Shown here piece after piece: positions 13,595-37,213 of a stretch of DNA of 50,496 nucleotides. The translations under genes were made by a program, and so were the position numbers. The DNA is from Bacillota bacterium. GTDB taxonomy: Bacteria; Bacillota; Limnochordia; DTU080. The notes under the pieces were generated by a model, which worked only from the letters and a program-made list of their open reading frames with translations, ran no database searches and was not told the origin of the DNA. The stretch covers positions 1-50,496 of the forward strand of contig DULU01000045.1 in NCBI GenBank assembly GCA_012840225.1, written 5' to 3'. Position 1 is the first letter of the stretch, and the number at the start of each line of letters is the position of its first letter.

Positions 13595-16500
13595 TTAATA
13601 CCAGTTCACCCCCAAGAGTTGCACATGACCGATCTGCAGATCTGCCGGAGGCTCTGCGCCGGCCGAGAGGGTCAGGCGGAAATAGCCAACCTCGGAGGGA
13701 GCGGCGTTCTCCGCCACCAGCCGGAATTTATAATAATCGCCGGGCTGACGCTCGACTGCCTCCAGGCGATATGCCAAAGCGCGCCACTCCGTGCCGTCCT
13801 TGGAAACAGCCATGGATATGCCGGCGGTGGCGGGAGTTTTGGCATAAAGGGTCACCGTCGCTGCAGTCAAACCCGCAGCTTCCCAGATCAGATGCTCCTC
13901 TTCCCGGCCCACCCTCACCAGGCGATCGGCATCGCCGCCAAAATCTCCTGGCCGGTCGCCGGCATGCCGCCAACCGGAGGTGGCACTGGAGAGCCACCAG
14001 GAAAGACTGCTTCCCCAACCAAGCGGGAGCGGTTGCAGCGAATCTTCGATCTGCCAACGATTGACGGCTAAAAAGGTGGTCGCTGCGGTAAAGACTGTGC
14101 CGCTAATGTTGGTAAGTTGCACGGTGAGCATATGCCGGCCGTCTGTGAGCCGGGTGGTATCGAACGAGAAGCCGGTGGGAAGCTCCCGGCCGCTATATAT
14201 CTCCTTGTCGTCCAGCATTATCTTGATGTTTTGTATGCTGGAGACCGGCTGGGCTACCTGAAGGAGGACGGGACAGTCGCCCTGGATTTGGGCATTGGTT
14301 ACCGGCGAGGTGATTTTGACATTGGCTACACAGAGATGGAGGGACTTCTCGTCCCGCCGCGGCCCGCCACCTCTGCCTCTGCGGTCACTTTCGCCGGTGC
14401 CGCCGGCGCTTTCGGCGATCACGGTGACGATATGACAACCGTCGGCCATCTCTCCGTAGTTCAGCGGCAGCGCTTTGGGAACCATGTTGTCCCGGTATAC
14501 CTCAATTCCGTCCACCAGCACTTTCAGGACATCTTCCTGCTCAGCAAATCCCGGCACGGTTATATTCAGAGACAGAGGACCCCACCAGGTCTTCTCTCTA
14601 TTGTCATAAGTGCCGGCCACTTCCACCTTGTCCACATACATCCCGGCGACAGCCTGAGGCAAAATTGTCACCTCATCAAGCTCATAGCCATGACTGGACC
14701 TCACCAGTTTGGCATCAGTGGCCATAAAGCGCATACCTTCCAGAACTTGAAGCTCCGGAAACCGCTCCCGCACCAGGCGCACGTCGATGGTGATGTCATG
14801 CCACTCGCCGTCGTCTAGCAGCACCGGACCAAGAGCCGGCTCGGCCGGTCGGGAAGCGGCGGTGCCGATGGCCAACACATGCCCCGGGCCGATGACCCGG
14901 TACGGATCCCAGGTATAAAATGTTTTTAAATACAGGCCGAGAGGGGTGCCGGGGTAGATGCGATAACGGAAACGCAGGAATGGATATTGATCCACATCCC
15001 AGTTCACAGGGTGCGCCCAGGCGGGCAGTACGGCATCGCTCCCTGCCGGGGCGAGAATGCGCAGGATGCCGTTGCCGTTCTCATCGAGTATACGCTCCCA
15101 TTGCACGGGTGTCGGGCGGTATATCTTCCACACCCGCCACCAATCCACATCGTCGGCATCGAAGGTGTTGGTGAGGAGCGGCGCCTCCGCCGGCTGCGGC
15201 TCCGCCACCACCACATATCCTGTCCCCCGGTAAATCTCACCGGCGGCAGTGATGGCCGTCACCCGGACGGGGTAGTCATTCTCCTCGCTGTAGCGGTGCA
15301 CAACCTCCTCACCGTAGGCAAGCATACCATCCCCCAGCTGCCAGACATACTCGACAGCCGCATCCGCCAGGCCATGGGCTATCACCTGGAGGCGTACTTC
15401 TTCTCCAGGCCTCAAGAGGAAGGGCTCCGCCACCACCTGCAGAGACACCCGCCCACCTTCACCATGCTCATACACCCCGATGTCCGGCGCCACCCCGGCC
15501 CACGGCAGGCTGACCGGATCGCCATCCTCCCACCTGACCGGCCGGTCCAATAGCAGCGTGTTGGCGTCATAGTCCACGACGAGCACCCGGGCCGGTTGCC
15601 GGGCTGAGCCGACGGCGATCAGATCGCCCACCTCGCCGGCAATGCCGAAGCCGTCGTAAAAGTATGCCGCATCGGCCACCGGGAGCATATTTCCTTCGCC
15701 TGCGCCCACCGCTTTGGTGAGGGGCACCCCGGCATCGAGCAGAGCACTCTCCGCCGCCAGAGCATGATTATAGTTGGCGCTGTCCACAAAACCCGGATCA
15801 ACCTCAAGATTGTCCAGAAATTGGGCATGACCCCCCTGCTGCCAAGTCCGGCTTTGTACCTGTTCCAAAGTTACGAGTTTATCGCCGGCGCCGATGGCGG
15901 CCGGACGGCCCGGCACTCCCGTGGTCAACACGTTGCGCAGAAATACCGCCCCTGGAGCGTATTTCCCGCCGCTATCCTGAAGAACAATCTGCTCATCGGC
16001 GCCCCAGGGGTTATTGCGGGAAAAGATATTATTCATCAACACCAGGTCGCTTCTCTTCCCATCGGTGCCGATCCGGAGGCCGAAATGCCCGTTGTCGTCA
16101 AAAACATTGTGATAAAACCGGGTTTTGTCCAGATATACGTCATACTCCGCATTGGCCGTCACCGGCAGCGGCCCGCCCCAGTTGCGGAAGATGCGATTAA
16201 AGCGAAAAATGGTTCGCTCCACGTGAAAGTTATTGCCGGCGTTTGACGACCGACCGCTGTTGTAGGCATTCGTGATGATATTGCCCTCAAAGAGCACATA
16301 CCGCTCTTCGAACAGCTCGAAGGTGCGTCCCCAGGCACCATGGAAGACGTTGCCCCGGATCACCAGGTACTTATTCCCCCCGTAAAGCCCCAGTTGCAGC
16401 GGAGAATGGCCCGCCTTGCTGAAGGCGTTCCCTTCGAACACCACCCGTTGGCATTCATTAACCTCAATGGCATTACCGTGCGCTTTGCTGAACTCACTGT

Positions 16501-17080
16501 CACGCACGAACAGATCCTTGCACTGCATGACCCTCATCAAGGTGTAGGGGCCATCGGGATTGTCCGCCTTCTCCATCACCACGTCCGTCAATTCAATATT
16601 TTTCGCTCTTTCGATGAAAGCCCAGCGCCCATTAGTCTGTGCGGTGATCCTCAATCCCTCGATTTTGATATGAGCCACATCTACCAGGCTGATAGTATAA
16701 TCGTCTCCTCCGGCCCCCATCAGCGTCGCCGTGCGCCGCTCCGCCGCCCGGAAGGTGATCGGTTCCTCCGGTGTGCCGCTCTGCTGGGGGGCGAGCTTAC
16801 CCTCATACACGCCGGGCATGAAGAGCACCGTATCCCCGGCCTGCACCTCCCGGGACACCTTGGCCAATGTCGCCCAGGGAGCTTCTGCCGTGCCGGGGTT
16901 CCCGTCGTGGCCGGAGGGGGATACATAGAAAACCTTTGTCTTCCCTGCCTCTCCCATACTTGGCCCGGTGGTCTGCACCTGCGCCTCCGTCCCCGTCCCT
17001 TTGCCGACCAAAAGCAGAAACACAAGCAAAAGGATTATCGATATGTAACCTCTATGCAGCGGATATGCTCTCAAACCCAT
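13595..17080 (-). CDS. Secreted multidomain beta-helix protein (putative polysaccharide lyase) with PKD-like and C-terminal binding modules
   Basis: A 1161-residue exported protein. The signal peptide covers about residues 1-33. FYVSPSGHDGNPGT followed by GDTVLFMPGVYEG (about 50-95) opens a right-handed parallel beta-helix that runs to about 540; repeats such as VFEGNAFSKAG and LFEGNIITNAYN are its coils. This fold is used by polysaccharide lyases (PL6, chondroitinase B) and other glycan-active enzymes. A PKD-like domain follows (about 550-640, WQLGDGMLAYGEEVVHRY), then a beta-sandwich of about 190 residues starting FDADDVDWWRVWKIY, and two further beta domains. The last 220 residues match the end of the heparinase-type protein at 28284. 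It heads an operon with a solute-binding protein and is divergent from an AraC gene. No catalytic residues could be assigned. Confidence 0.78.
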   Translation of the reverse strand: MGLRAYPLHRGYISIILLLVFLLLVGKGTGTEAQVQTTGPSMGEAGKTKVFYVSPSGHDGNPGTAEAPWATLAKVSREVQAGDTVLFMPGVYEGKLAPQQSGTPEEPITFRAAERRTATLMGAGGDDYTISLVDVAHIKIEGLRITAQTNGRWAFIERAKNIELTDVVMEKADNPDGPYTLMRVMQCKDLFVRDSEFSKAHGNAIEVNECQRVVFEGNAFSKAGHSPLQLGLYGGNKYLVIRGNVFHGAWGRTFELFEERYVLFEGNIITNAYNSGRSSNAGNNFHVERTIFRFNRIFRNWGGPLPVTANAEYDVYLDKTRFYHNVFDDNGHFGLRIGTDGKRSDLVLMNNIFSRNNPWGADEQIVLQDSGGKYAPGAVFLRNVLTTGVPGRPAAIGAGDKLVTLEQVQSRTWQQGGHAQFLDNLEVDPGFVDSANYNHALAAESALLDAGVPLTKAVGAGEGNMLPVADAAYFYDGFGIAGEVGDLIAVGSARQPARVLVVDYDANTLLLDRPVRWEDGDPVSLPWAGVAPDIGVYEHGEGGRVSLQVVAEPFLLRPGEEVRLQVIAHGLADAAVEYVWQLGDGMLAYGEEVVHRYSEENDYPVRVTAITAAGEIYRGTGYVVVAEPQPAEAPLLTNTFDADDVDWWRVWKIYRPTPVQWERILDENGNGILRILAPAGSDAVLPAWAHPVNWDVDQYPFLRFRYRIYPGTPLGLYLKTFYTWDPYRVIGPGHVLAIGTAASRPAEPALGPVLLDDGEWHDITIDVRLVRERFPELQVLEGMRFMATDAKLVRSSHGYELDEVTILPQAVAGMYVDKVEVAGTYDNREKTWWGPLSLNITVPGFAEQEDVLKVLVDGIEVYRDNMVPKALPLNYGEMADGCHIVTVIAESAGGTGESDRRGRGGGPRRDEKSLHLCVANVKITSPVTNAQIQGDCPVLLQVAQPVSSIQNIKIMLDDKEIYSGRELPTGFSFDTTRLTDGRHMLTVQLTNISGTVFTAATTFLAVNRWQIEDSLQPLPLGWGSSLSWWLSSATSGWRHAGDRPGDFGGDADRLVRVGREEEHLIWEAAGLTAATVTLYAKTPATAGISMAVSKDGTEWRALAYRLEAVERQPGDYYKFRLVAENAAPSEVGYFRLTLSAGAEPPADLQIGHVQLLGVNWY

Positions 17081-18121: not shown

Positions 18122-18508
18122 TCAGTCGTCTTGGGCCTCTTCACCTGTCATTTGCCTTTGGTGAAATCGGGAAATTCCACCGGCTGGCTGCGTTGGACCA
18201 CTGAGGCTTCCGACAAGGGCGAGATGACGCTGGATGTGACCGAATAATACACATCGAAATCCGCACAAGCGCTTAAAGTCGGTCGGGCCCGGTCCATAGA
18301 GGCGCGGCGGTGCTTGTCCGGCCTCTTCCACCCACCTTTTGGCCCGGTATAAATATCCTTCATCGGTGTCGCAAAGAGCCACCACTTCCACTCCGGGAAT
18401 ACCCAAAGCTACATCGAGATGATATGAACCCTGATCACCGACACCGACAAAACCCAGCCGAATTGTTCTCCCAACCGTTTTCCCGGAGGAGGCTTCCATG
18501 TCGACCAT
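18122..18508 (-). pseudogene. Gfo/Idh/MocA oxidoreductase gene with internal deletion
   Basis: On the minus strand the gene starts with a complete NAD-binding Rossmann motif (IRLGFVGVGDQGSYHLDVAL), then VEVVALCDTDEGYLY and a segment up to about DFKRL. After that point (near 18265) the frame loses all family resemblance. The next frame instead reads VTSSVISPLSEASVVQRSQP and ends VEFPDFTKGK, which resembles the extreme C-terminus of this dehydrogenase family (ISPLSE, PVEFPDFT). The whole catalytic middle, some 250 residues, is missing. The gene is therefore a deletion remnant of a sugar or cyclitol dehydrogenase, once a plausible partner of the aminotransferase at 10309. Confidence 0.75.
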
Positions 18509-18728
18509 CGACCCCTTTCACCGTCTATTGTTTATTTCAGTTTAGGCCGGGGGTATGGGGAAAACCATATGTTCAGGTTGGTGCGCGGCACCGACTTTTT
18601 TACAATCGACAGCCAGGGGCCATCACATTCTGTAGCTGGAAAACTCTTCCCCTTATATTGTTTCAGTGATAAAATTAAGTCGTTGGATGACTTACGAAGT
18701 CATCTGTCGTCTGAAGAGGTGTTCTTCA

Positions 18729-20327
18729 TTGGGACACAAAGAACGCAAGACGAGAGCAATGGAAGTGTCCGAAAACATACGCGAATACATAGTGCGCACC
18801 GGACTAAAACCGCAGGACATGCTGCCTTCCATTGAAAAGCTGGCCCAAATTTTCAATACCTCGCGAGGAACCGTGCGTGAGGCCTTGATGCATCTTTCCA
18901 GCTCCGGAATAGTCAGGATGGAACAGGGCAAGGGCACCTGGGTGGCCGAGCCGCAAATCCACAGTCTGTTATCTTCAGTGGTTTGGAAGCCATTATTGAA
19001 CACCGTATCATCAGATGAGTTGGCCATGGCCCGTTGTGCTATTGAAAGTGCGGCGGTCGGTTTTGCCGCGCAAAACGCCACCGACGACGAATTAGCCAAT
19101 CTGAACCACTTGTGCCTGGAAATGGACTCCGCCCGCATGAGGGCTGATGTTGACAACTATCTTGATCTTGACCGGCAATGGCATCATGCCCTGGCCAAAA
19201 TGTCTCACAACAGCATCCTGGCTGAGCTCACGGCCCTCCTTCACAACCTGGCTCTGCGGGCGCTGGACCGCAACCGGACTATCAAGTGCGCGGCCGCGGA
19301 AATCCGCTATCACTTGGACATTGCCAATGCCTTGGCCGCCCGCAGGGCAGAAACGGCAAAGAGTTTGCTCGAACGGCACATTATGGAGTGGGATACCAAT
19401 TACCGGCAGGGAAAAAGCCTCACCGTCTATTGCGATGTTCTGGGCACGGGATCTTTCGGCGGCTCCTTTTATACTCTTGGCCAGGTAATAACCTGCCTTT
19501 TGGGTCAATACTCCTGGATCAAACCTGTCGTCCATGCTACAGGTGGCGGAATAGAAAACATAAACCTCACCCGCGATCGGCACATCGGCCTGAGCATAGT
19601 ACAAGCCGATATCGCCGAAGACGCTTATTTTGGCCGCGGAAGATACCAGACACCATATAAAGACCTGAGATACCTCTGCCGCTTGCCCGGCTTGCAATAT
19701 CAAGTGGTCTGCCTGGCATCCTCCTCCATCAAAAGCCTCAGCGACCTGCGGGGGAAAAGAGTCTCTATTGGAGCCCGCGGGGGAACAAGTGCAGAAATTT
19801 CCCGGGAGATCCTCTCCAGATGTGGTCTGATGGAGAATAAAGACTACACTTCCCAGCTCAATCCGATTTCCCTGGCGGTGCATATGGTGCTCTCCGGCGC
19901 CATTGACGCCGTCTGCTTTTTGTCCATGGGTCAAAGCTCGGCGTTGCTGGAACTAGCTTGCCAAGCTCCCGTTCGCCTCCTCTCTTTGGAGAAGGAGCTT
20001 ATCAACGCCATGCTGGAGGAGCATCCCTCCTGGTATGAGTGTACGGTCGATGCCGACACCTATCCGGGGCAGACTTCTCCGGCGCAGACTATCGGTGTCC
20101 CAACTATTTTGGTCAGTCACCGGGATGTGCCGGAAGCGGATGCCTATGCGGTAACGGCGGCTGTGTTGAGAAATATAGACAAGATAAGTGCACTGGTCCG
20201 TCCGAGTTCCGGTTATAGCCTGAGCGAAGCCGTGGCTGAAGTGCAGATACCCCGCCATATAGGGGCTGAAAAGTACCTGGTCGAGTCCGGACTGATTACG
20301 ATGCCGCAAGCCATGGGGCAAGATTAG
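18729..20327 (+). CDS. GntR/FadR-type regulator (FCD) fused to a TAXI-family solute-binding domain
   Basis: About 532 residues in one uninterrupted frame. Residues 12-75 are a GntR winged helix (MLPSIEKLAQIFNTSRGTVR, wing GKGTWVAEP). Residues 95-225 are an all-helical FCD domain with its metal-ligand pattern (Asp and His in LDLDRQWHHAL, His in RYHLDIANAL, His in LLERHIMEW). From about 229 to 525 comes a TAXI-type TRAP solute-binding domain: VLGTGSFGGSFYTLGQVI, ATGGGIENINL, IGLSIVQADIAEDAYFG, IKSLSDLRGKRVSIGARGG. TAXI proteins normally sit outside the cytoplasmic membrane and feed TRAP transporters. Here there is no signal peptide and no TRAP membrane subunit, so I infer a cytoplasmic ligand sensor. 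The start is a TTG with AGAGGTG 7 bases upstream; a GTG at 18666 lacks such a site. It heads a plus-strand gene series. Confidence 0.85.
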   Translation: MGHKERKTRAMEVSENIREYIVRTGLKPQDMLPSIEKLAQIFNTSRGTVREALMHLSSSGIVRMEQGKGTWVAEPQIHSLLSSVVWKPLLNTVSSDELAMARCAIESAAVGFAAQNATDDELANLNHLCLEMDSARMRADVDNYLDLDRQWHHALAKMSHNSILAELTALLHNLALRALDRNRTIKCAAAEIRYHLDIANALAARRAETAKSLLERHIMEWDTNYRQGKSLTVYCDVLGTGSFGGSFYTLGQVITCLLGQYSWIKPVVHATGGGIENINLTRDRHIGLSIVQADIAEDAYFGRGRYQTPYKDLRYLCRLPGLQYQVVCLASSSIKSLSDLRGKRVSIGARGGTSAEISREILSRCGLMENKDYTSQLNPISLAVHMVLSGAIDAVCFLSMGQSSALLELACQAPVRLLSLEKELINAMLEEHPSWYECTVDADTYPGQTSPAQTIGVPTILVSHRDVPEADAYAVTAAVLRNIDKISALVRPSSGYSLSEAVAEVQIPRHIGAEKYLVESGLITMPQAMGQD

Positions 20328-20345
20328 TTGCTGTGGAGCACGCAC

Positions 20346-21116
20346 ATGCGCATAGGTACATACAACATTTTCAGTTTCCGCGGCTTTCCCGGAGAGGAAG
20401 CCGCCAAAGAGCTGGGAGAACCAAACAGCCCTGAACGCATCAAACATTTCACCGGCGTCTTCAGGGAACTCGACTGCGATATCCTGGCGCTGCAGGAAGG
20501 CGGCGTGGCGGCAAAGACCATTCAAGCTATCGCCGACGGGCTGGGGGTGAGCGTAGCCACCTTTACCTCCCCCTGCTATTGGCCCGGGCATCTCTTATCA
20601 AGATATAAAATTGTCGAATCCCGCACATTCAGCCACTTTGTGCCCGGCGGCGTGGAGCCACCGTTCAGCCGGTGCTGCGGTGCCGCTTTAGTCGAGGCAG
20701 CCGACCGGCTGATATGGGTGGTGGTCTTGCATCTATATCCCAAATCATTGGAAATGCGTTCTAAGGAAGCCGCCATCCTCACCGATAAAATAGCCGATTT
20801 AGCCAAAGATACCCGGTACATCATCGTCCTCGGCGACTTCAACTCCAATATCACCGAGGATGTTCATGTGGCTTTGGGGGACCTTGGCTTCGTCAATGCC
20901 ATGTTGGCGGTGGGAGGCGGACTGCGGCCTACCATTGATACGGCGGGGAAAAAACGAAGCATATTGGATCACATTTATGTAAGCGCCGACCTGTCGCATA
21001 CCTTACGGCGCTCTTTTGTGGTTGATGCCCCGGGATTCCGCAGTGACGATGCCCAGGAAGCCGGCGGTTGGGTGCACTCCGATCACCTGCCGGTGGTAGC
21101 CGAACTGGAACTTTGA
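20346..21116 (+). CDS. Endonuclease/exonuclease/phosphatase (EEP) family hydrolase
   Basis: A 256-residue cytoplasmic protein of the DNase-I-like metal-dependent fold. Motifs in order: MRIGTYNIFSFRG (strand with the first asparagine), DILALQEGG with the metal glutamate, YIIVLGDFNSN and, at the C-terminus, WVHSDHLPVVAEL. Members cleave phosphodiesters or phosphomonoesters in nucleic acids, inositol phosphates or sphingolipids; the sequence does not tell which. The ATG at 20346 has GGAG 7 bases upstream; a TTG six codons earlier directly follows the regulator's stop codon. Its position, 18 bp after the GntR-TAXI gene, implies cotranscription. Confidence 0.85.
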   Translation: MRIGTYNIFSFRGFPGEEAAKELGEPNSPERIKHFTGVFRELDCDILALQEGGVAAKTIQAIADGLGVSVATFTSPCYWPGHLLSRYKIVESRTFSHFVPGGVEPPFSRCCGAALVEAADRLIWVVVLHLYPKSLEMRSKEAAILTDKIADLAKDTRYIIVLGDFNSNITEDVHVALGDLGFVNAMLAVGGGLRPTIDTAGKKRSILDHIYVSADLSHTLRRSFVVDAPGFRSDDAQEAGGWVHSDHLPVVAELEL

Positions 21117-21161: not shown

Positions 21162-22652
21162 ATGGTTTTTAGACGGCCGAGTTTGAAAAGGTACGGATCA
21201 TATACAAAAAGGCTGTGGCCTGCAGCACCATTCCTTTTGTGCTTAATAGTCCTGATACATGCTCACTATCCCGTCACCGCCGCCGGTACCCAATATGAAA
21301 TCCATGCTTATCTGCAGGATATGTTGTGGGAAAATACGGCGGACGGCGCTTTGGATGTGTCAGGCATCCTTAGGCTCACGCTGTCGCCGACGCCTTTTCC
21401 GCCATCAACGAATTTTGGCGTGGAAGCTTCTCTTTTATTGCGCACCCCGAGCAGCTTCAGCCCGCTTCACGCCGCCTGGCGCCAGGAGAAAAAGCTGCTT
21501 TTATCGGAAGAAGTCAAATTCAGCACAAATGAAGTGCTGATCCCTTTCCGCGCCACAGTATTGGAAGCAGACGATCTCAAGAGTCAATGGTGGGCGACGG
21601 CACAAATAGCCACCGCTCCGCCTCTTGATGTGGTGGTGCATCAGCCGTGGGACGACAGTTTCAGCCTGGGCGAGCGGTTCATCCCGTTCCCGGAAGTGGC
21701 AGGTTATCAGCTTCTCCGCGGTGATTTCCACATTCATACCAACAAATCCAGAGATGCAGCGGAAGCTCCTTCACCGGAGAACCGGGCCATTGAGTCGTAT
21801 CAATATGGTTACGATGTGATCAGCCTGACCGATCATTTCCATATGTACGCCTACGACCTGGCCAAAGATACAGCCGAGCAGATAGGTCTGATTATGTTGA
21901 GAGGCATGGAGACCGGAATGGTTTCATTGACCGGAGGAGAGCATTTTGTGGCGTTATGGGAAGGAGAGATGCCGACTTATCAGCCCAAAGATGAGCACGC
22001 CTGGTCCAGGGAACCATCGGGGCGAACGGCTTTCTATCAAAACCAGGTCAAGGGCATCGCGGAAAGCGGCGGCCTGCTTATCTACGCTCATCCCAATCTT
22101 GGCTCGGGGGATTTCACGGCAGCCGTGAAATGGATGCTCGAAAACCACTACTTTTCAGGCATTGAGTACCGCGGCACCTGGCGCAATTTCATTTTCGATC
22201 TGGCTCTGGAGCAAAACCTTAGTCTTATCGCCAGCTCGGATATTCACACCAAAAGAGCCAACATCGATCCCCGCCAGGCTCCCGTCACCTTGATACTGGT
22301 GGATAAAGCCGACCCGGCAGGCGTTATGGAGGCGATACGTGAAGGCCGGACCATGGCCTGGCACAACGAGGGAACCTTAGTCGGCAGCGAGAGATGGGTA
22401 AAAGCGTATGTGGAAGCAGCTGTGGAAGTGTCGTATGAAGGAGGTGAAATTATTCTCACCAACGGCGGCGGCTTACCACTGCGCGGCACCGTATATTACA
22501 ACGGGGGCAGCAGACCGGTTATCCTGCCGTCGCTGAGCACCGTAGTTATAGGCCGTGCTGAAGAGGCACCGGCCGAAGTGGAGATTCGCTGGGCAAATGT
22601 TCATTATGGACCAAACCGTACACTTCACACGAAGCATCAGGTAGCACAATAA
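21162..22652 (+). CDS. Secreted PHP-domain phosphoesterase-like protein
   Basis: A 496-residue protein with a basic, then hydrophobic N-terminus (signal peptide, about residues 1-40). Residues 45-180 form a beta-rich domain. The PHP domain follows, with its metal-binding motifs in order: GDFHIHTNKS (about 187), SLTDHFH (about 220), LLIYAHPNLGSGD (about 305) and SSDIHTKR (about 357). This set is typical of the CehA/McbA-like branch of PHP metallohydrolases. A beta-rich tail covers residues 420-496. The start has AGAGGAG nearby. Being exported distinguishes it from the housekeeping PHP enzymes. It may remove phosphate or open phosphodiesters on an extracellular substrate, but this is inference. 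Confidence 0.85.
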   Translation: MVFRRPSLKRYGSYTKRLWPAAPFLLCLIVLIHAHYPVTAAGTQYEIHAYLQDMLWENTADGALDVSGILRLTLSPTPFPPSTNFGVEASLLLRTPSSFSPLHAAWRQEKKLLLSEEVKFSTNEVLIPFRATVLEADDLKSQWWATAQIATAPPLDVVVHQPWDDSFSLGERFIPFPEVAGYQLLRGDFHIHTNKSRDAAEAPSPENRAIESYQYGYDVISLTDHFHMYAYDLAKDTAEQIGLIMLRGMETGMVSLTGGEHFVALWEGEMPTYQPKDEHAWSREPSGRTAFYQNQVKGIAESGGLLIYAHPNLGSGDFTAAVKWMLENHYFSGIEYRGTWRNFIFDLALEQNLSLIASSDIHTKRANIDPRQAPVTLILVDKADPAGVMEAIREGRTMAWHNEGTLVGSERWVKAYVEAAVEVSYEGGEIILTNGGGLPLRGTVYYNGGSRPVILPSLSTVVIGRAEEAPAEVEIRWANVHYGPNRTLHTKHQVAQ

Positions 22653-22688: not shown

Positions 22689-23408
22689 ATGCAAGTCAAA
22701 CTGGTCTGCGGATTTGTCCTCGTGGCTTTGCTTTTGGGGATGGGTATGGCCATGGCCGCCGAGATCCCGGACGACTGGTATGCCCTCAAATTCACGGATA
22801 TAAACGGCAGCGTCATGGTGTCGAGCTCATTCGGTAAACTGAGCGGCAAAAGTCAATTTACGGTTGAGTTCTGGACTAAACCTATCCAGCCCCTGGGCGA
22901 CGGTGTGGCTATCTTCGATTATGAACAGTATCTGGTGCAACAGAGAAAGGATAACACCTACAGAATTCGCTACCATCTCGACGGCGCCTGGCGGACCAAT
23001 CATTACCTCGATGTGAGCGATGTGATCGACGACTGGCACCACATCGCCTTCAGCTGGGACGGCACGGAAACCCGGATTTACTTAAACGGCGAGCTCGTCA
23101 TTTCGTCCACAGAAGACAGCCAGTATGAAGCCGTAACGCAGCGGAATCGCTTCTTTGTCATCGGCGGCCGGCAGGGCGTGGATGATTTCCACGGCTATCT
23201 GACAGAGGTGCGGGTGTGGCTGACGGTGAGGACTCCAGAAGAGATCAAGCAGATGATGAGCACCCGCCTGACGGGCAAGGAGGAGGGCTTGATCGGCTAC
23301 TGGGACTTCTCCGAAGGCAGCGGCCCGTTCCTGCATGACAAAAGCGGCAACGGCAACGACGGGATCATAAGCAACGCCGAATGGGTAAAGGTGGCCGACA
23401 CCAAGTGA
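22689..23408 (+). CDS. Secreted LamG (concanavalin-A-like) domain protein
   Basis: A 239-residue protein: a signal peptide of about 24 residues (cleavage AMA-AEIP) and one LamG/Laminin_G_3 jelly-roll domain filling the rest. Diagnostic stretches are FTVEFWTKPI, DDWHHIAFSWDGTETRIYLN, GRQGVDDFHGYLTEVRVW and the ending LIGYWDFSEGSG ... DKSGNGNDG. Such domains bind carbohydrate or occur as accessory modules of secreted enzymes; no catalytic residues are expected. It has no transmembrane anchor. It is placed 36 bp after the PHP gene and about 100 bp before the solute-binding protein, in the same series. A ribosome binding site (GAAAGGGTG) is present. Confidence 0.87.
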   Translation: MQVKLVCGFVLVALLLGMGMAMAAEIPDDWYALKFTDINGSVMVSSSFGKLSGKSQFTVEFWTKPIQPLGDGVAIFDYEQYLVQQRKDNTYRIRYHLDGAWRTNHYLDVSDVIDDWHHIAFSWDGTETRIYLNGELVISSTEDSQYEAVTQRNRFFVIGGRQGVDDFHGYLTEVRVWLTVRTPEEIKQMMSTRLTGKEEGLIGYWDFSEGSGPFLHDKSGNGNDGIISNAEWVKVADTK

Positions 23409-23441
23409 CGACGGCATGTGACGACGGCAAGTGACGACGGC
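23403..23441 (+). repeat. Three tandem 13-bp repeats overlapping a stop codon
   Basis: Three head-to-tail copies of AWGTGACGACGGC (W is A or T) span the LamG gene's stop codon and the spacer before the solute-binding protein gene. Copy number could vary by slippage. Confidence 0.85.
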
Positions 23442-23505
23442 AAGCAACTTAAAAGGTCGCAATAACCTGGACAGACAACCACACATCAAAGAGGGAGAGA
23501 TCGAC

Positions 23506-24837
23506 ATGCAACACAGACGGCGTACTTTTGGTTTAATGGCCGCTCTGACCATCACCTTGCTGGTAGCGGTCCAAGGTTTGAGCCTGGCGCAAAACAGCCC
23601 CATCGAAGTGGAGTTTTTCCGTGAAGAGCTGACCAGCGACACCGCCGTGGCTCATCTGCGGATCGCCGCCTTGTTTATGGAGGAAAATCCCGATATCAAG
23701 ATCAAATTCACCGTGGCTTCATCCAGCAACTATACCGCGGCCTTGACCACCCGCATCATTGCCGGCGAGGCGCCGGAAATCTCCAATCTGGTCGGCACAT
23801 TGGTTCCTGAATTCGCCGAGAAGGGGTTGCTGCAGGATATCAATGTCTATGCCGAGAAAAACGGCGTGGTGCTGGACAGGTTACTCCTGCCGATGGCCAT
23901 CGATTACGGAAAATGGCGGGGAGTGCTCTATGCTGCGCCGGTGATGGTCCAGCCATTCGCTACCTATTTCAACGTCGCTTTCTTCGAGGAAGCCGGTGTG
24001 GCCAGCCCCATTATCCAAGCGAGATCCGGTAACTGGAACTGGGATACCATGGCCAATGCGGCGAGACATCTGACCCGTGACCTGAACGGCGACGGAGCTA
24101 TCGACCGCTGGGGTGTAGCCCACGGCGCTGCCGCCACCTCTCGGGTCAATGTTTTCATCAACACTGCCGGCGGCAGCTTCATACAACCTAACCCGCCGCC
24201 GTTCCGCAGCGCGCTGAACACACCGGAAGTGCTCAAGGCTTTTGAGTTCCTGAACCGGATGATCAATGAGTGGCGTGTCATGCCGCCCCCGCATGGTCGG
24301 ACCAATGCCACCAGATTTGAAACCGGCAATTCCTCTATGACTTTTGAAGGACCGTGGCAGATCGGCACAAATAGGGTGAACCGCCTGGCTTACGAATGGG
24401 ACGTAGCTCCTATCCCCCGTGGGCCGGACAATGACGGCAGCAACATTCATATCGGCAGCCTGCAGATGCCTCTGGGTTCCAAAAATCCCGATGCGGCCTG
24501 GAAGTATATCCATTTCGTCCTGACCGATCCGAGGGCGGCGGACATCTACATGCGGGTAACAGGCAGACCTCATGCCAATCTGGCTTTCCTGCCGCAATAT
24601 TTCCGCATTCAGGAGGAAGAAGGCAATCCCAAAAACGTAAGAGTCCTGGGAGATATGCTGATGCATCCTCGGTCCGTGCCCATGATCCCCAGTTGGCCGG
24701 CGCAGACCGAACTGGCTGCCGTGCTGGAGTCGCGCCTGAAGGCGGCTTATGAAGGGAAACTGGCCATGGCTATCGCCCTGCAGCTCGCTCATGAAGAGTG
24801 GAACGTCATCTTCGACAATTTCAACAAGCAGAATTAG
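23506..24837 (+). CDS. Extracellular solute-binding protein, family 1
   Basis: A 443-residue secreted binding protein. The signal peptide (MQHRRRTFGLMAALTITLL, cleavage near SLA-QN) has three arginines and no lipobox. Family features are IEVEFFREELTSD at the first strand, FMEENPDIKIKF, IIAGEAPEISNLVGTL near residue 82 and, late, NPDAAWKYIHFVLTDPRAADIY. The ligand-lobe segment DLNGDGAIDRWGV has the calcium-like loop seen in its relatives. The start at 23506 follows GGGAGAG by about 7 bases, which is better supported than an upstream ATG (23431) inside the repeat-flanking spacer. It closes the first part of the GntR-TAXI series and ends at a strong terminator. Confidence 0.88.
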   Translation: MQHRRRTFGLMAALTITLLVAVQGLSLAQNSPIEVEFFREELTSDTAVAHLRIAALFMEENPDIKIKFTVASSSNYTAALTTRIIAGEAPEISNLVGTLVPEFAEKGLLQDINVYAEKNGVVLDRLLLPMAIDYGKWRGVLYAAPVMVQPFATYFNVAFFEEAGVASPIIQARSGNWNWDTMANAARHLTRDLNGDGAIDRWGVAHGAAATSRVNVFINTAGGSFIQPNPPPFRSALNTPEVLKAFEFLNRMINEWRVMPPPHGRTNATRFETGNSSMTFEGPWQIGTNRVNRLAYEWDVAPIPRGPDNDGSNIHIGSLQMPLGSKNPDAAWKYIHFVLTDPRAADIYMRVTGRPHANLAFLPQYFRIQEEEGNPKNVRVLGDMLMHPRSVPMIPSWPAQTELAAVLESRLKAAYEGKLAMAIALQLAHEEWNVIFDNFNKQN

Positions 24838-24932: not shown

Positions 24933-25673
24933 ATGTCGGAAAAATTAGCTATCCCGGCCGTCATCGCTCACCGGGGAGCTTGCGACACGGCACCGGAGAA
25001 TACCCTTCCCGCTTTTCGGGAAGCTATGACGATCGGCAGCGACGGCATTGAGACCGATGTGCAAATGACCAAAGACGGCCACCTGGTTCTCATTCATGAT
25101 GCCAGGGTGGACCGGACCACCAACGGCGAGGGCCTGGTGAGCAATTTCACCTTGAGAGAGTTGCGGGCGCTGGATGCCGGCTCCTGGTTCAGCAAGAATT
25201 TTACCGGGACTACCATACCGCTCCTCAGCGAGCTATTGGACCTCTGCGCCGGTCAAATCCCGCTCGTCATCGAGATCAAGGCCAAAGGCATCGAGCAATT
25301 GCTCAAGGAGAATATATTACATCATCCCCGTGGCCGGGAGGCAAACATCACCTTCACCTCCTTCTCCCTCGATTACCTGGTGGCTCTAAAAGGTATCTGG
25401 CCTGAAGCGCATTGCGGCTACCTGGTGCGGGAACCGTCTTTCAATCTAGTGCCCGGGCTCAGAGCCTCCGGCATCAGGCAAATCTGCCCGCCGGCCAAAT
25501 CTCTCACGAGCGAGGCAGTCGAAGCCTGGCACAAAGAAGGTTTCACAGTCAGAGCATGGGATGTAAAAACAGAAGACATGGTACGGCACTGTGCCGCCAT
25601 AGGCGTAGACGGCTTTACTGTCAATTTTCCTAAAAAAGCCCTGATATTCCTTGGTAAGCAGGTGAACCGGTAA
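24933..25673 (+). CDS. Glycerophosphodiester phosphodiesterase family protein
   Basis: A 246-residue TIM-barrel enzyme without signal peptide, so cytoplasmic. The GDPD signature is intact: AHRGACDTAPENT (residues 12-24) with the catalytic histidine and arginine, IETDVQMTKDGHLVLIHD (metal Glu/Asp and second catalytic His), then VDRTTNGEG. The C-terminus has FTVRAWDVKTEDMV and GVDGFTVNFP, also family-typical. It hydrolyses glycerophosphodiesters to glycerol 3-phosphate plus an alcohol, or a related phosphodiester. The start has AGCGAGGCGG upstream. It lies after the strong terminator but on the same strand, next to the UROD-family gene. Confidence 0.92.
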   Translation: MSEKLAIPAVIAHRGACDTAPENTLPAFREAMTIGSDGIETDVQMTKDGHLVLIHDARVDRTTNGEGLVSNFTLRELRALDAGSWFSKNFTGTTIPLLSELLDLCAGQIPLVIEIKAKGIEQLLKENILHHPRGREANITFTSFSLDYLVALKGIWPEAHCGYLVREPSFNLVPGLRASGIRQICPPAKSLTSEAVEAWHKEGFTVRAWDVKTEDMVRHCAAIGVDGFTVNFPKKALIFLGKQVNR

Positions 25674-25704: not shown

Positions 25705-26724
25705 TTGATTACAGCACGAGAGTTAGTGAAGAAACAGATACATCACCAAGCCACCATCCCCATACCCAGCGTGCTTCATATAGAATCCGGGCTGGCGGCT
25801 CAGCTTGATGAGTATTATGGCTCCCCGGCTTGGCGCGCCGGTGTGCCGGCCGACATCATTACAGTGGTGGCTTTTGATGATTCCGTCTACAAAAATGTCG
25901 ACGACACCCACAGCATCGATGTTTTTGGGACCTTGTGGCGCACCGACCTCTTGCCGAGACACATCGAGAAGCCGGCGCTGGAGCGTCCGTCATTTGCCGG
26001 TTATAATTTCCCCGCTGCGGATATGTTTTTCAGCGACGAACTCTTCAAAAAAGCGGAAATAAAATGCCGAAACCACCAGGACAAGTTCCTCGTAGCCAAA
26101 ACCGGCTGGGGCCTGTTTGAGCGCACCTGGACTATCAGAGGCTTTGAAAATGCTCTGATGGATGCCATAACAGATCAAGGCTTCTATGAAGAACTCCTCG
26201 ACCGGCTTCTGGCATTGCAGCTGGAATTCGTGAAGCATGTTTTGCGCTTGCCCGTCGACGGGGTGATGTTTTCCGACGACTGGGGTGATCAACGAGGAGT
26301 GATTTTAGGTCCTGAGCTGTGGCGGAAGCTGATCAAACCCAGAGTGGCGGTTCTTTATGAAACGGTACATGCCGCCGGGAAATATACCTTAAGCCACTGC
26401 TGCGGCAATGTCACTGAAATCATGCCCGACATCATTGAAATCGGATTGGATGTTATAGAGAGCGTCCAGCCTGAAGCCATGGATCCCTTTGCCCTCAAGC
26501 GGCAGTGGGGCGACAAAATCACTTTTTGGGGCGGATTGGGCTCGCAAAGCAGCCTGGCGTTCGGGACTCCTGAGCAGATTCGCCGCGACATCAAGCAATT
26601 ATGCAACACCTTAGGCCAAGGCGGAGGCTATATCCTCGCCCCGGCAAAGGCTCTCATGAGCGGCATGCCCATCGCTAATGCCGCGGCCACTGTAGAATGC
26701 TTTGCCGAGCAGCGGCAGCTTTAA
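25705..26724 (+). CDS. Uroporphyrinogen decarboxylase-family protein (methyltransferase-like)
   Basis: A 339-residue TIM-barrel protein of the UROD/MtaA/CmuA superfamily. HCCGNVTEIMPDIIEIG near residue 230 has the His-x-Cys zinc motif of the methylcobamide:coenzyme M type methyltransferases rather than the haem-biosynthetic enzyme. GGLGSQ near residue 272 is also typical. No haem-synthesis genes are nearby. In Bacillota such genes often act in corrinoid-dependent demethylation of methylated amines, methanol, aryl ethers or glycans. The start is a TTG with GAGGAGG 7 bases upstream. The stop codon overlaps that of the convergent histidine phosphatase. Confidence 0.85.
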   Translation: MITARELVKKQIHHQATIPIPSVLHIESGLAAQLDEYYGSPAWRAGVPADIITVVAFDDSVYKNVDDTHSIDVFGTLWRTDLLPRHIEKPALERPSFAGYNFPAADMFFSDELFKKAEIKCRNHQDKFLVAKTGWGLFERTWTIRGFENALMDAITDQGFYEELLDRLLALQLEFVKHVLRLPVDGVMFSDDWGDQRGVILGPELWRKLIKPRVAVLYETVHAAGKYTLSHCCGNVTEIMPDIIEIGLDVIESVQPEAMDPFALKRQWGDKITFWGGLGSQSSLAFGTPEQIRRDIKQLCNTLGQGGGYILAPAKALMSGMPIANAAATVECFAEQRQL

Positions 26725-28283: not shown

Positions 28284-31200
28284 ATGTTTCCCGCCAGAAC
28301 CACGTTCATTGTGGAAATCAGCCGGTGGCTGCTCCCTGTCTTTTCGCTTCTCATAATCAGCGCCGCCATTTTTCTCCCGACCGAAGCCGCCCAGGCCAAG
28401 ACGAAGACCAACCTCCTGACGGCGGAAAAAGTGGCGGAAATCCGCCGCACGCGCCAATGGGAAGGAGTCAACGTAAGCAGTGTCCTGGCCACGGCCAACA
28501 CTTGGCTGAAATACAGTCCGGAAGAGCTGAGGCGGCTGGTTCCCCCGGCCTGGGTGCCGCGGGCCTATGATGTCAATTTCAAACAAGACCCATTGCATTC
28601 GGAGGAGGTCCTGCGCACCGGCCGCTATCCGTTTATCGTCAACCCCGATCTGCCGTATAAGATCATGTGCCCGGTGGGCGGGGAGATCTACCCCACCAAC
28701 GATTTCGATCCCACCCAGGTGACCACGTCTGATCAAGCCACCAGCGAACCCTATGTGGACTATGGCTGGGGCTGGATCAAGCCCGACGATCCATATAGGT
28801 ACTGGTTTGTCGGCTATTACACCCACTGGCTGTGGTATAGCCACCTGCGCCCGGCCGTCCTGGCTTTAGGCCAGGCCTATATCATCACCGGCGACCAGCG
28901 CTATGCCCGCCAGGCCGCCATCCTCCTCGACCGCATCGCCGAGGAATACCCACATATGGACTACCAGTCGCAATCCAGGGAGGGGCTGGAAACCTATGCC
29001 GGCAACTACCCCGGGCGTATATTGAACCGCATCTGGGAAACCGGCATGGTGACCGACCTGGCGACAGGGTATGATTACATCTATGAAGGCATGGAAGGCG
29101 ACACCCAGCTGGAAGAGGCAACGGGGAAGAGTGTGGCGGAGATCCGGAGCAATATTGAGGAAAACCTGCTGGAAAGCGCCGCCCGTTCCATCCATACCAT
29201 GGATATGCGCATTGTCGGCAACTTCGGCATGCATCACAGAACCATGTCCATCCTGGCCTTCGTGCTGGATAATGAGAATTCCGCCAAATATATCGACTTC
29301 GTGCTGCACAATTCCGGAGGTCCCAGCTTGCTTTATGAAGGGGTGATTCCCGGCCTGACCAACTTGATCTTCCGGGACGGGGCACCCTATGAAAGCGCTC
29401 CCAACTATAACACCGGTTGGGTCAGCGCTTTGAATACCATAGCCGGTATGCTGCAGTCGATCGGTATCGATCTCTACAAGAGCGAGCCGAAGCTTAAGCG
29501 GTTGTCGGATTATCCGCTGCGCATCGTGATGGCGGATAAGTTTTCTCCCAACATCGGCGATTCCGGCTCGGTGAAAGCTGAGGGGATTGTGGGCTGGAAC
29601 ACCAATCTCTACACCAAGATTTTCCAGCAATATGGCGACCGGGCGTACCTCCTGGGGAAACCCTTGACCACCGGAAGCGACAACATGAGCGCCCATGGTC
29701 TGGCCATGCTGCGCAGCGGACAAAGCGGCAGTCAGGCAGCCGGTATAAGCCTCTATTATGGTCTCGGCGGCGGCCATGATCACTACGCCAGGCTCAATTT
29801 GGAAATGTTTGCCAAAGGCTACCGTATCCTGCCTGATTTGGGTTACCCGGAATATGCCGATGTTTATTCGAAAAAGGACCAGGCCTGGGTGCGCAATACG
29901 GTAAGCCACAATGTGGTGGTGGTAGACGAAAAGCGTCAGGCTACCAAAGACGGCGGCCACCTGCAGTCCTTTGCCGCCCTGCCGAATGTGCAGTATGTCG
30001 ATGTGCGGGCTGAAGAGGCTTATCCGGGTGTGGAGCGCTACCAGAGGTCTGTGGCGCTGATCAATGCACCGGGAAGCGAGGTGTATGCGCTGGATGTCTT
30101 CCGGGTGGCCGGCGGGCGGCAGCATGATTATAGCCTCCACGGCCCCGACGGCGAGCTGACCGTGTCCGGCATTGAGCTTTCGCCGGTGCAGCCGGGCACC
30201 GTCGCCGGACCGGATGTGCCCTATGGTTACCTATATGATGCTCCCTCCATGGAAAGAGCGGGCTTCAAAGGTCCTTATAGCAGCTATATCGGAAGCGGCT
30301 TCTCTTACCTCACCAATCCGCAGCACGCCACCGCCGCCGGCATCTGGCATGCCGACTGGCAGGTCACCGGATCGAGAACCCACCTGCGCGCCACCTTCGT
30401 GCCTCAGGCCCACCAAGAGGGCGGGATCATCGTAGCCGACGGCGAGCCGCCGCGCAATCAGGTCGGTAACCCTGAACTATTGAAATATATATTGGCCCGA
30501 CATCAGGCTCCCGACACTCCCGACAAAGCTTCCACCCCGCTGACCAGCACTTTCGTCACCATCCTGGAGCCGTATGAAGAGCGGCCTTTCATCACCGGAG
30601 TGCGGCCGCTGGGCGGCGAGCTGCCGGGAGGTGCCGATCAGGTGATAGGCTTGGCGATTGAACACCTGGGCGGCACGGATTACTTGTTCCAGGCCGTCGA
30701 AACTTCCGCCGCCGGCCACTGGCCCGACGCCGGAGCCGCCTTCCGGGGCTCCTTCGGGGTGATCGCTTTTGACCAGGGCGGGATGATCAGGCATGCTTCC
30801 CTGATCGGTGACGGTTACATCAAGCACGGTCCCGTCAGCCTGGAAAGCGCCGGGGCCTATAGCGGCCGCATCGTGGCCGTCGATTATCAAGACGGCCGCG
30901 TCACGGTAGAGCTTGATGAGCACTCTCTGGCCCTTCCCGAAGGCGAGGTGCTCGCCGGCTCCCGCATCGTCATCGGCAACGAGCGGCATGCCACGGAATA
31001 TGAAATACAGTCAATACACCGGCTCGATGGGCGGCGTTACGCCTTGCTCTTCACCGATTCCTTCTTCCTCACCGGCCAGGGGCTGACCGGCACGGTGACG
31101 GCACAACCCGACGGGGAAACCCGCCTTACCACCCCCACCCCGATGGTGCTGAACACCTATTATAACGGGCAATGGCTGGTGAATCCCAACAACGGCCGGG

Positions 31201-32201
31201 GCGGACGCATCGCCTATTTCGCCGGAAACGGGCAGAACATTTTCGTCTCCGCCGCCGAACTGGGCTTAACCAACGGGGATTATTTCCACATATATGATTT
31301 CGGTCCCGGCGATCACTTCCGGATCACCATCACCATCAGCGTCAAGGCTGCCGGCACCGGCCGCTATGAAGTGCTAAGCAATGTGCCGGGTCGCCTGGTG
31401 CTCTGGGATGGTGGCGAGCACGACATAACCCCCGGTACCCAGGTGGTGACGGTGCCCGTCCTGGAGCTGCAGATGCTGAACCGGCCGGCTGCTCCCGTTT
31501 CAGGAGATTTTGCCCCCGCATTCAGCATAAAGGCTCCTGCCGGCCTGGAGTGGCGGCAGCTGGAAATCCTTCTCGACGACAAAACCATCTATACCGGCAC
31601 CGGCCTGCCCGGTGAGGAGGAACTGATGATTGACACGCTCCTCTTAGCCGACGGGCTGCATCAACTGCAGCTCCGGGCCAAAGACTCCTTCGGCAAAGTG
31701 GTCGGCGTCACCGAGACCTTTGAAGTGAAAAACTGGTGGGAGATCGACACCGAACTGCAGGCACCGGTACAATCCGCCTGGTTCGGGGCCATTGACTTCA
31801 CTTCAATATATGAAAAATCCGCCGGCTGGCAGTTTACCGGAGAGCGGATGGAAGACTACCTGGACGATAAAGACCGCATGGTCCGCGCCGCGCCGGGAGA
31901 TCAGTATATCATCTGGCAGACCCCATACCTGCAAAGCTACGAAATAACCTTCTACAGCAAGACGGCTGCCCTGCCGGCGGAGGTGGAGCTCGCCATCTCG
32001 CCCGATGGAGAGCGCTGGGAGCAGTTGCCGGCGGCGGCGCTGGTGACGGGCCGGTCCGAAAGCGGTTGGCAGCGCCTTGTGGTGGCGGGAGAGCTGCCCC
32101 GGGAGACCACCAGCCAATACTTCCGCATATTGGTGTGCGCCGCCCTGCCTATGGCCGACATCGAAATCGGGGCGGTTAAGCTGCGGGGATTTGCCAGATA
32201 A
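28284..32201 (+). CDS. Secreted heparinase II/III-type polysaccharide lyase with C-terminal modules
   Basis: A 1305-residue exported protein (signal peptide about residues 1-36, ending AAQA-KTK). Residues 40-420 are an alpha-helical toroid domain, with NFGMHHRTMSILAFV near residue 310. A heparinase II/III beta domain follows, recognised by GGGHDHYARLNLEMF (H498, H500 and Y501) and NTVSHNVVVVDEKRQ near 545. Its fold cleaves acidic polysaccharides by beta-elimination. Residues 690-1070 form beta-rich domains, including GRIVAVDYQDGRVTVEL repeats. The last 220 residues match the end of the beta-helix protein at 13595 (see findings). The start has AGGAGGAGG 9 bases upstream. Substrate unknown; heparin-like or other uronate glycans are plausible. 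Convergent with a solute-binding protein gene. Confidence 0.86.
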   Translation: MFPARTTFIVEISRWLLPVFSLLIISAAIFLPTEAAQAKTKTNLLTAEKVAEIRRTRQWEGVNVSSVLATANTWLKYSPEELRRLVPPAWVPRAYDVNFKQDPLHSEEVLRTGRYPFIVNPDLPYKIMCPVGGEIYPTNDFDPTQVTTSDQATSEPYVDYGWGWIKPDDPYRYWFVGYYTHWLWYSHLRPAVLALGQAYIITGDQRYARQAAILLDRIAEEYPHMDYQSQSREGLETYAGNYPGRILNRIWETGMVTDLATGYDYIYEGMEGDTQLEEATGKSVAEIRSNIEENLLESAARSIHTMDMRIVGNFGMHHRTMSILAFVLDNENSAKYIDFVLHNSGGPSLLYEGVIPGLTNLIFRDGAPYESAPNYNTGWVSALNTIAGMLQSIGIDLYKSEPKLKRLSDYPLRIVMADKFSPNIGDSGSVKAEGIVGWNTNLYTKIFQQYGDRAYLLGKPLTTGSDNMSAHGLAMLRSGQSGSQAAGISLYYGLGGGHDHYARLNLEMFAKGYRILPDLGYPEYADVYSKKDQAWVRNTVSHNVVVVDEKRQATKDGGHLQSFAALPNVQYVDVRAEEAYPGVERYQRSVALINAPGSEVYALDVFRVAGGRQHDYSLHGPDGELTVSGIELSPVQPGTVAGPDVPYGYLYDAPSMERAGFKGPYSSYIGSGFSYLTNPQHATAAGIWHADWQVTGSRTHLRATFVPQAHQEGGIIVADGEPPRNQVGNPELLKYILARHQAPDTPDKASTPLTSTFVTILEPYEERPFITGVRPLGGELPGGADQVIGLAIEHLGGTDYLFQAVETSAAGHWPDAGAAFRGSFGVIAFDQGGMIRHASLIGDGYIKHGPVSLESAGAYSGRIVAVDYQDGRVTVELDEHSLALPEGEVLAGSRIVIGNERHATEYEIQSIHRLDGRRYALLFTDSFFLTGQGLTGTVTAQPDGETRLTTPTPMVLNTYYNGQWLVNPNNGRGGRIAYFAGNGQNIFVSAAELGLTNGDYFHIYDFGPGDHFRITITISVKAAGTGRYEVLSNVPGRLVLWDGGEHDITPGTQVVTVPVLELQMLNRPAAPVSGDFAPAFSIKAPAGLEWRQLEILLDDKTIYTGTGLPGEEELMIDTLLLADGLHQLQLRAKDSFGKVVGVTETFEVKNWWEIDTELQAPVQSAWFGAIDFTSIYEKSAGWQFTGERMEDYLDDKDRMVRAAPGDQYIIWQTPYLQSYEITFYSKTAALPAEVELAISPDGERWEQLPAAALVTGRSESGWQRLVVAGELPRETTSQYFRILVCAALPMADIEIGAVKLRGFAR

Positions 32202-37160: not shown

Positions 37161-37213
37161 ATATGAAAACCTCTCCTCTCTCGCTTTAAAACAGTGCAGG
37201 AACAAACCCGTGT

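Follow-up and report, generated by a model that had tools for sequence, protein, structure and literature searches.

What does a solute-binding domain of the kind used in TRAP transport do at the end of a GntR-type regulator? The question is raised by a gene at positions 18,729 to 20,327 of a 50,496-nucleotide stretch of DNA from a Bacillota bacterium (the window, by which we mean the whole stretch analysed). A preliminary description had proposed that a GntR winged helix, an FCD domain and a TAXI solute-binding domain are joined here in one frame of about 532 codons, and that the product is a transcription factor with two sensors. If annotation followed the strongest match, such a gene would be labelled as a TRAP transport protein even where the genome lacks a TRAP transporter.

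The joining of the three domains is borne out by the reading frame and by profile searches with Pfam and NCBIfam. A single uninterrupted frame of 532 codons, with zero internal stops, runs on the forward strand from TTG 18729 to the stop at 20327. The open frame reaches in the 5' direction to GTG 18666; TTG 18729 fits better as the start codon, because a Shine-Dalgarno-like GAAGAGG lies 9 nt upstream of it (18713-18719; both elements together at 18713-18731, +) and because it aligns with the starts of the relatives. The GntR winged-helix DNA-binding domain occupies residues 1-75 (18729-18953, +), with the Pfam match (PF00392, E=8.8e-16) at residues 12-72, and with helices at 35-41 and 46-58 and the wing strands visible in the structural model. 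It is followed by the FCD domain at residues 76-227 (18954-19409, +; PF07729 at residues 97-218, E=5.7e-19, 69 bits against a cut-off of 24.3), in which the D-H-H-H set of the earlier account is found as D148, H152, H195 and H217. A short hydrophilic linker without a signal peptide (residues 228-234; 19410-19430, +; pLDDT below 50 at 228-233) leads to the TAXI binding domain, the proposed main sensor, at residues 235-532 (19431-20324, +). These approximately 300 residues beyond the FCD domain constitute a complete TAXI domain: the Pfam profile NMT1_3 matches residues 238-521 over positions 1-289 of 289 (E=1.5e-57), and TIGR02122 (TRAP_TAXI, NCBIfam) scores 172 bits against a cut-off of 84. Ahead of the TAXI part there is no stretch resembling a transmembrane segment or a signal peptide, the maximum 19-residue hydropathy near the junction being 0.97, which agrees with the earlier observation that no signal peptide lies before or between the domains. 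Structure prediction with AlphaFold2 gave two confident modules (mean pLDDT 90.7), a front part with the helical FCD bundle and a module with the TAXI fold, separated by a flexible stretch at 228-233, their relative placement being uncertain (pTM 0.65). In Foldseek comparisons, the TAXI module resembled 1us4, 8u79, 9ibo and 8s4j (target-normalised TM 0.89-0.90, with 0.90 for 1us4); GntR/FCD structures were matched by the front part, including 6az6 and NanR 6on4.

The same order of GntR, FCD and NMT1_3 was found in five relatives, which belong to five other genera in two classes of the phylum. These are G433, G442 and G414 from the window's class, and G117 and G178 from another class; together with the protein of the window's own genome (G000) they make a family of six sequences, from draft genomes. 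In G433, G442 and G414 the fusion is unbroken, and each protein contains GntR, FCD and a complete NMT1_3 domain (Pfam). In G117 the frame differs between the regulator part and the TAXI part, with the break on a run of 10 N, and in G178 it changes inside the TAXI part on a run of 2 N; since both breaks fall exactly at N runs, the reading as split genes or pseudogenes was rejected for these two genomes. An assembly chimera or a frameshift, raised earlier as an objection to the fusion together with a possible failure of the TAXI match, is ruled out by the three other genomes in which the fusion is unbroken, and the NMT1_3 match is full-length. Two relatives (G117 and G178) came from 399 scanned genomes of the phylum, and the three further ones from a scan of 73 genomes of the window's class; a second draw of 399 phylum genomes returned G414, G117 and G178 only. 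The fusion occurs in 4 of 73 genomes in the window's class and in 2 of 12 in the other, and none was seen outside these two classes in the sampled phylum. A public-genome search, which used only winged-helix peptides as patterns and is no measure of how widely the family is spread, found one fused relative, G178, which matches the public MAG Clostridia bacterium DTU025. No plasmid record covered 80% of the window protein. Judged from the sequences, the architecture is real, patchy in its distribution, and rare.

The origin of the fusion was approached through a tree of TAXI domains, comprising the six fused TAXIs, 28 transport TAXIs and two solved TAXIs. The six fused domains form one side of a branch with a support of 100/100 and a stem length of 1.13, and because they constitute a single clade, the capture took place once. 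The pair from G117 and G178 nests inside the window-class group, the fork to G433 and G442 being weak (93/75), and a transfer of the fusion between classes is possible.

The fused copy is the sole NMT1_3 of the genome in G000, G433 and G442; DctM was not found in the genomes of G000 and G433, and G442 has one marginal match of 29 bits. Since the completeness of these three genomes is 93-97%, it is unlikely that a permease has been overlooked in all of them. By eye, nearly all of the transport TAXIs used for the tree have a leader. With neither a signal peptide nor a permease, a transport function for the fused TAXI was rejected. As a separate observation, G117 is an unusually TRAP-rich bacterium, with about 30 DctM and 13 NMT1_3 matches in 3.2 Mb (L059 and elsewhere).

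The genes around the fusion were compared as well. In the window, three genes on the forward strand are candidates for the same operon as the regulator: a member of the endonuclease/exonuclease/phosphatase family (20328-21116; Exo_endo_phos, E=9.6e-14), a 496-residue protein that appears to begin with a signal sequence and in which PHP/phosphoesterase-like motifs were inferred by eye (21162-22652; no Pfam match at 1e-5), and a LamG protein (22689-23408; Laminin_G_3, E=8.2e-25). They are followed on the same strand by an ABC sugar-type solute-binding protein (23431-24837; SBP_bac_1, E=1.4e-33), a glycerophosphodiester phosphodiesterase (GDPD; 24933-25673, E=1.1e-39), and, after the GDPD, a URO-D family protein that is probably a methyltransferase-type member (25705-26724; domain search). 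The G433 locus contains two ABC permeases, a binding protein and a GDPD. In G442 a GDPD adjoins the fusion, and a type I phosphodiesterase, a second GDPD and Dpp-type ABC genes lie farther off, while the G414 locus consists of a type I phosphodiesterase, the regulator, a GDPD, Dpp-type ABC genes, a sulfatase-like gene and two ABC ATPases. The loci of G117 and G178 encode a xylose-isomerase-like protein with DctP, DctQ and DctM (DctM by profile, the other TRAP subunits by eye). A GDPD lies within 5 kb in all four window-class loci, with only 4-5 GDPD matches per genome; this co-occurrence carries less weight because the loci share ancestry. Type I phosphodiesterase/nucleotide pyrophosphatase, GDPD and Dpp-type ABC genes also make up a conserved block in G414 and G442 (L058, 10873-12321; L057, 14401-15828), which forms one operon with the fused regulator in G414 and lies a few kb away from it in G442.

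The constant theme of the six loci is uptake together with a hydrolase or an isomerase, and three kinds of transporter take part in it. This variety suggests that the regulator reads a metabolite of the cell rather than one particular permease. It also bears on the idea that the TAXI domain is an intracellular transporter partner, which touches a permease from the cytoplasmic side and signals its transport activity without reading a free ligand. Uptake genes do adjoin all six fusion genes, as that idea would have it, but the neighbouring transporters are of the CUT1-type ABC, Dpp-type ABC and DctPQM TRAP kinds, and three of the genomes offer no credible TRAP permease for the TAXI domain to contact, so that we give this explanation very little credence.

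The three domains differ in their conservation. Mean pairwise identity among the six members, a small sample, reaches 48% in the TAXI domain and 45% in the winged helix, against 27% in the FCD domain. In each of the four unbroken members the TAXI domain spans the entire profile, and some of its residues are invariant in the family yet almost never occur in transport TAXIs. If it were a vestigial passenger of a read-through fusion, on a protein acting as an ordinary GntR/FCD regulator, the alteration of several known glutamate-pocket residues would be understandable; such a passenger, however, is expected to decay faster than the FCD domain, whereas this one has decayed more slowly, is the best conserved domain of the protein and retains its own family-specific residues, which makes the passenger explanation highly improbable.

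The FCD domain is the least conserved of the three, and only the window protein and G117 have all four residues of its D-H-H-H ligand set. The corresponding residues are D, H, N, N in G433; E, Y, Y, N in G442; D, Q, R, H in G414; and D, H, H, Y in G178. For these two reasons the "two-sensor" label is doubtful: the cytoplasmic transcription factor with a captured binding domain stands, while the claim of two sensors is weakened by the divergence of the FCD domain. A true two-sensor regulator, in which FCD and TAXI bind different effectors and both set the promoter output, would explain why all four residues are present in the window and G117, and would suit the organic acids bound by the FCD domains of known regulators (PMC4494728), but it is unlikely in view of the incomplete sets in the other four members and the low conservation of the domain. 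In the family as a whole, the FCD domain looks more like a module mostly for dimerisation, on its way to losing effector binding; the window's own FCD domain, with D-H-H-H intact, may keep a metal or a second effector. The TAXI domain is likely to be the main sensor.

The nature of the ligand was considered by comparison with VcGluP, in whose glutamate pocket Y45 and Q93 matter most, and S75, E125, Y200 and M201 also make contact (PMC11574862). The alignment has about 28% identity, and residues near gaps (200-203) are less sure. Among Y45, S75, Q93 and E125, only Q93 is kept in all six fused members (Q292 in the window). Y45 is replaced by F in five members (F247 in the window) and is Y in G414; S75 has become G or A (G274 in the window), and E125 has become L or S (L322 in the window). 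S40 is kept, as is Y46 in five of the six; G203 is replaced by M, I, V or A. A plain glutamate sensor is disfavoured by this comparison. At H123 the family divides into two groups: the four members of the window's class have P, whereas G117 and G178 have H. These two groups may therefore not share one ligand. The organic acid suggested in the preliminary description is no more than a candidate, since the VcGluP pocket is only partly retained and the genes beside the fusion in the window's class would suit phosphodiester or glycerophosphate chemistry equally well. A small anion tied to the neighbouring uptake and phosphodiesterase genes, and not simply glutamate, is the probable ligand.

The target of the regulator is suggested by a palindrome, GTCATCRGATGAC (GTCATC-R-GATGAC), which precedes the start of each of the six genes or operons by 40-66 nt and closely follows the -10 box. 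Mismatches to it number 0 in G117 and G178, 1 in G433, 2 in the window and in G414, and 4 in G442. The palindrome is rare against shuffles in five members (0-2 of 1000), and the weak G442 site with its 4 mismatches is not; these counts overstate the case, because the six sequences that were searched are also those that defined the motif. Its standing as a candidate regulatory site is supported by its constant position, by the near-absence of other matches in some 19 kb of sequence surrounding each relative, and by its placement in G414, where it stands before the first gene of the phosphodiesterase-regulator-GDPD-ABC operon and not directly before the regulator gene. In the window, a consensus scan gives a candidate promoter at 18647-18675 (+), weak when taken alone, with a weak -35-like TTCCCC, a 17-nt spacer and a -10-like TAAAAT (18670-18675). 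Directly downstream of the -10-like box is the candidate operator at 18679-18704 (+), in which GTCGTTGGATGAC (18679-18691) overlaps a perfect inverted repeat, GATGACTT-ACG-AAGTCATC (18686-18704). The window palindrome is the best site in the 150 nt upstream, equalled in 2 of 1000 shuffles, and the sole exact match to GTCRTYRGATGAC in the 3.55 Mb window genome is the candidate operator itself. Promoter-like pairs with 17-nt spacers are found shortly before the palindrome, most clearly in G117 (TTGACC/TAGAAT), G178 (TTGACC/TATAAT) and G414 (TTGCCA/TATATT). The palindrome has the form GT-N9-AC and does not fit GTM-N0-1-KAC, the usual consensus of the FadR subfamily; some FadR-type regulators have other motifs, so that this is no strict criterion (PMC4494728). 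The conserved winged helix and the promoter-proximal palindrome point indirectly to a DNA-binding regulator of transcription. The position of the palindrome just after the -10 box suggests autorepression, and a repressor seated there would be the natural reading.

Taken together, we consider, with a probability of roughly 0.7, that the protein is a one-component cytoplasmic transcription factor with the order winged helix, FCD and TAXI, in which TAXI is the main sensor, and which represses its own operon until a solute is bound. On this view, the FCD domain of a FadR-type GntR regulator was extended, on a single occasion, by a TAXI binding protein that had lost its signal peptide. The FCD bundle would dimerise the protein, and the two winged helices would bind GTCATC-R-GATGAC beside the -10 box. 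Thus bound, the dimer would repress the operon of the regulator, which holds either transport genes and a phosphodiesterase or an epimerase and a TRAP transporter. An imported or processed solute would close the TAXI clamshell, and the closure would alter the spacing of the winged helices and release the promoter. The idea of a captured transport domain has gained substance from a recurrent fusion of single origin that has no signal peptide, persists without TRAP permeases and has an operator-like site at its promoter. The capture is permanent, and in several of these bacteria, where no TAXI transporter is left, the regulator very likely uses the captured domain to sense a small molecule in the cell and to control nearby uptake genes.

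LacI, LysR and AraR are cases in which extracytoplasmic binding folds have turned into cytoplasmic sensors, with the sensor placed directly on the DNA-binding part. YhfZ combines a GntR-like helix-turn-helix with a binding-protein-like C-terminal domain; its NCBIfam model matches the window protein over the winged helix only (residues 26-89), and PF14503 (YhfZ_C) was not found in the window protein by Pfam up to E=1. PF14503 is counted among the SBP families, and SBP-type Pfam domains are described in general terms as sensor domains of regulators (PMC9602780), so that the principle of a binding-domain sensor in regulators is already known. The GntR subfamilies listed in one study are FadR, HutC, MocR, YtrA, AraR and PlmA, none with TAXI (PMC4494728), and in the open-access literature we found no description of a GntR-FCD-TAXI or GntR-TAXI fusion, in keeping with the earlier statement that no such regulator is known. 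The combination appears to be new to that literature, while a regulator with an SBP-type sensor is known in principle.

The nearest analogue in principle is AraR of Bacillus subtilis, which likewise places a GntR winged helix on a captured periplasmic-binding-protein fold, reads its ligand in the cytoplasm and, as is proposed for the fused family, regulates uptake and catabolic genes (PMC4494728, PMC4218819). It differs in that its fold is of the GalR/LacI type (type I) and has no FCD domain, whereas the window protein carries TAXI behind a complete FCD domain; Pfam finds no GalR/LacI-type domain in it, the C-terminal domain being NMT1_3. NanR, LldR and PdhR of the FadR (FCD) subfamily share the winged helix and FCD domain and are its best NCBIfam relatives, but members of this subfamily typically end after the FCD domain, where the window protein has a second ligand-binding domain of about 300 residues, and within the fused family the ligand residues of FCD vary. 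The TRAP TAXI proteins VcGluP and TtGluBP have the complete TAXI fold in common with it; by comparison, the fused family lacks a signal peptide and, in three genomes, a cognate TRAP permease. TAXI-GltS proteins (Bordetella BP0403; Lachnospiraceae fusions) have also been recruited away from TRAP permeases, sometimes by gene fusion, but they are extracytoplasmic, act in transport with GltS and have no DNA-binding part (PMC12344293).

We lean towards regarding the family as a TAXI-sensor GntR subfamily, captured once, in which TAXI would have taken sensing from the FCD domain and left it as a dimer scaffold, and which would have spread between classes and unrelated transport operons, including those of TRAP-less genomes. 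In this family the older sensor, FCD, is still present beside the captured TAXI domain, at varied stages of ligand-residue loss, and therefore sensor replacement in a large regulator family becomes directly testable. In addition, TAXI proteins are among the less understood binding proteins, and a soluble member in the cytoplasm, coupled to a genetic read-out, would offer a handle on their ligand range.

Several minor features of the window lie around the regulator. A 128-codon frame divergent from it (18122-18508, -) has a start resembling Gfo/Idh/MocA oxidoreductases (IRLGFVGVGDQGSYHLDVALGIPGVEVVALCDTDEG), after which the similarity is lost by eye; it has no Pfam match at 1e-5 and is perhaps the remnant of a broken gene. 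Between the LamG and ABC binding-protein genes, at 23402-23444, there is a 13-bp direct repeat, CAAGTGACGACGG, in 3.3 copies. Three very large secreted-type proteins are encoded at 13595-17080 (-), 28284-32201 (+) and 33771-37205 (-), the first with beta-helix, PKD and Ig-like domains and the other two resembling, by eye, heparinase-type polysaccharide lyases; together with several ABC sugar-binding proteins, they make this look like a polysaccharide-use region.
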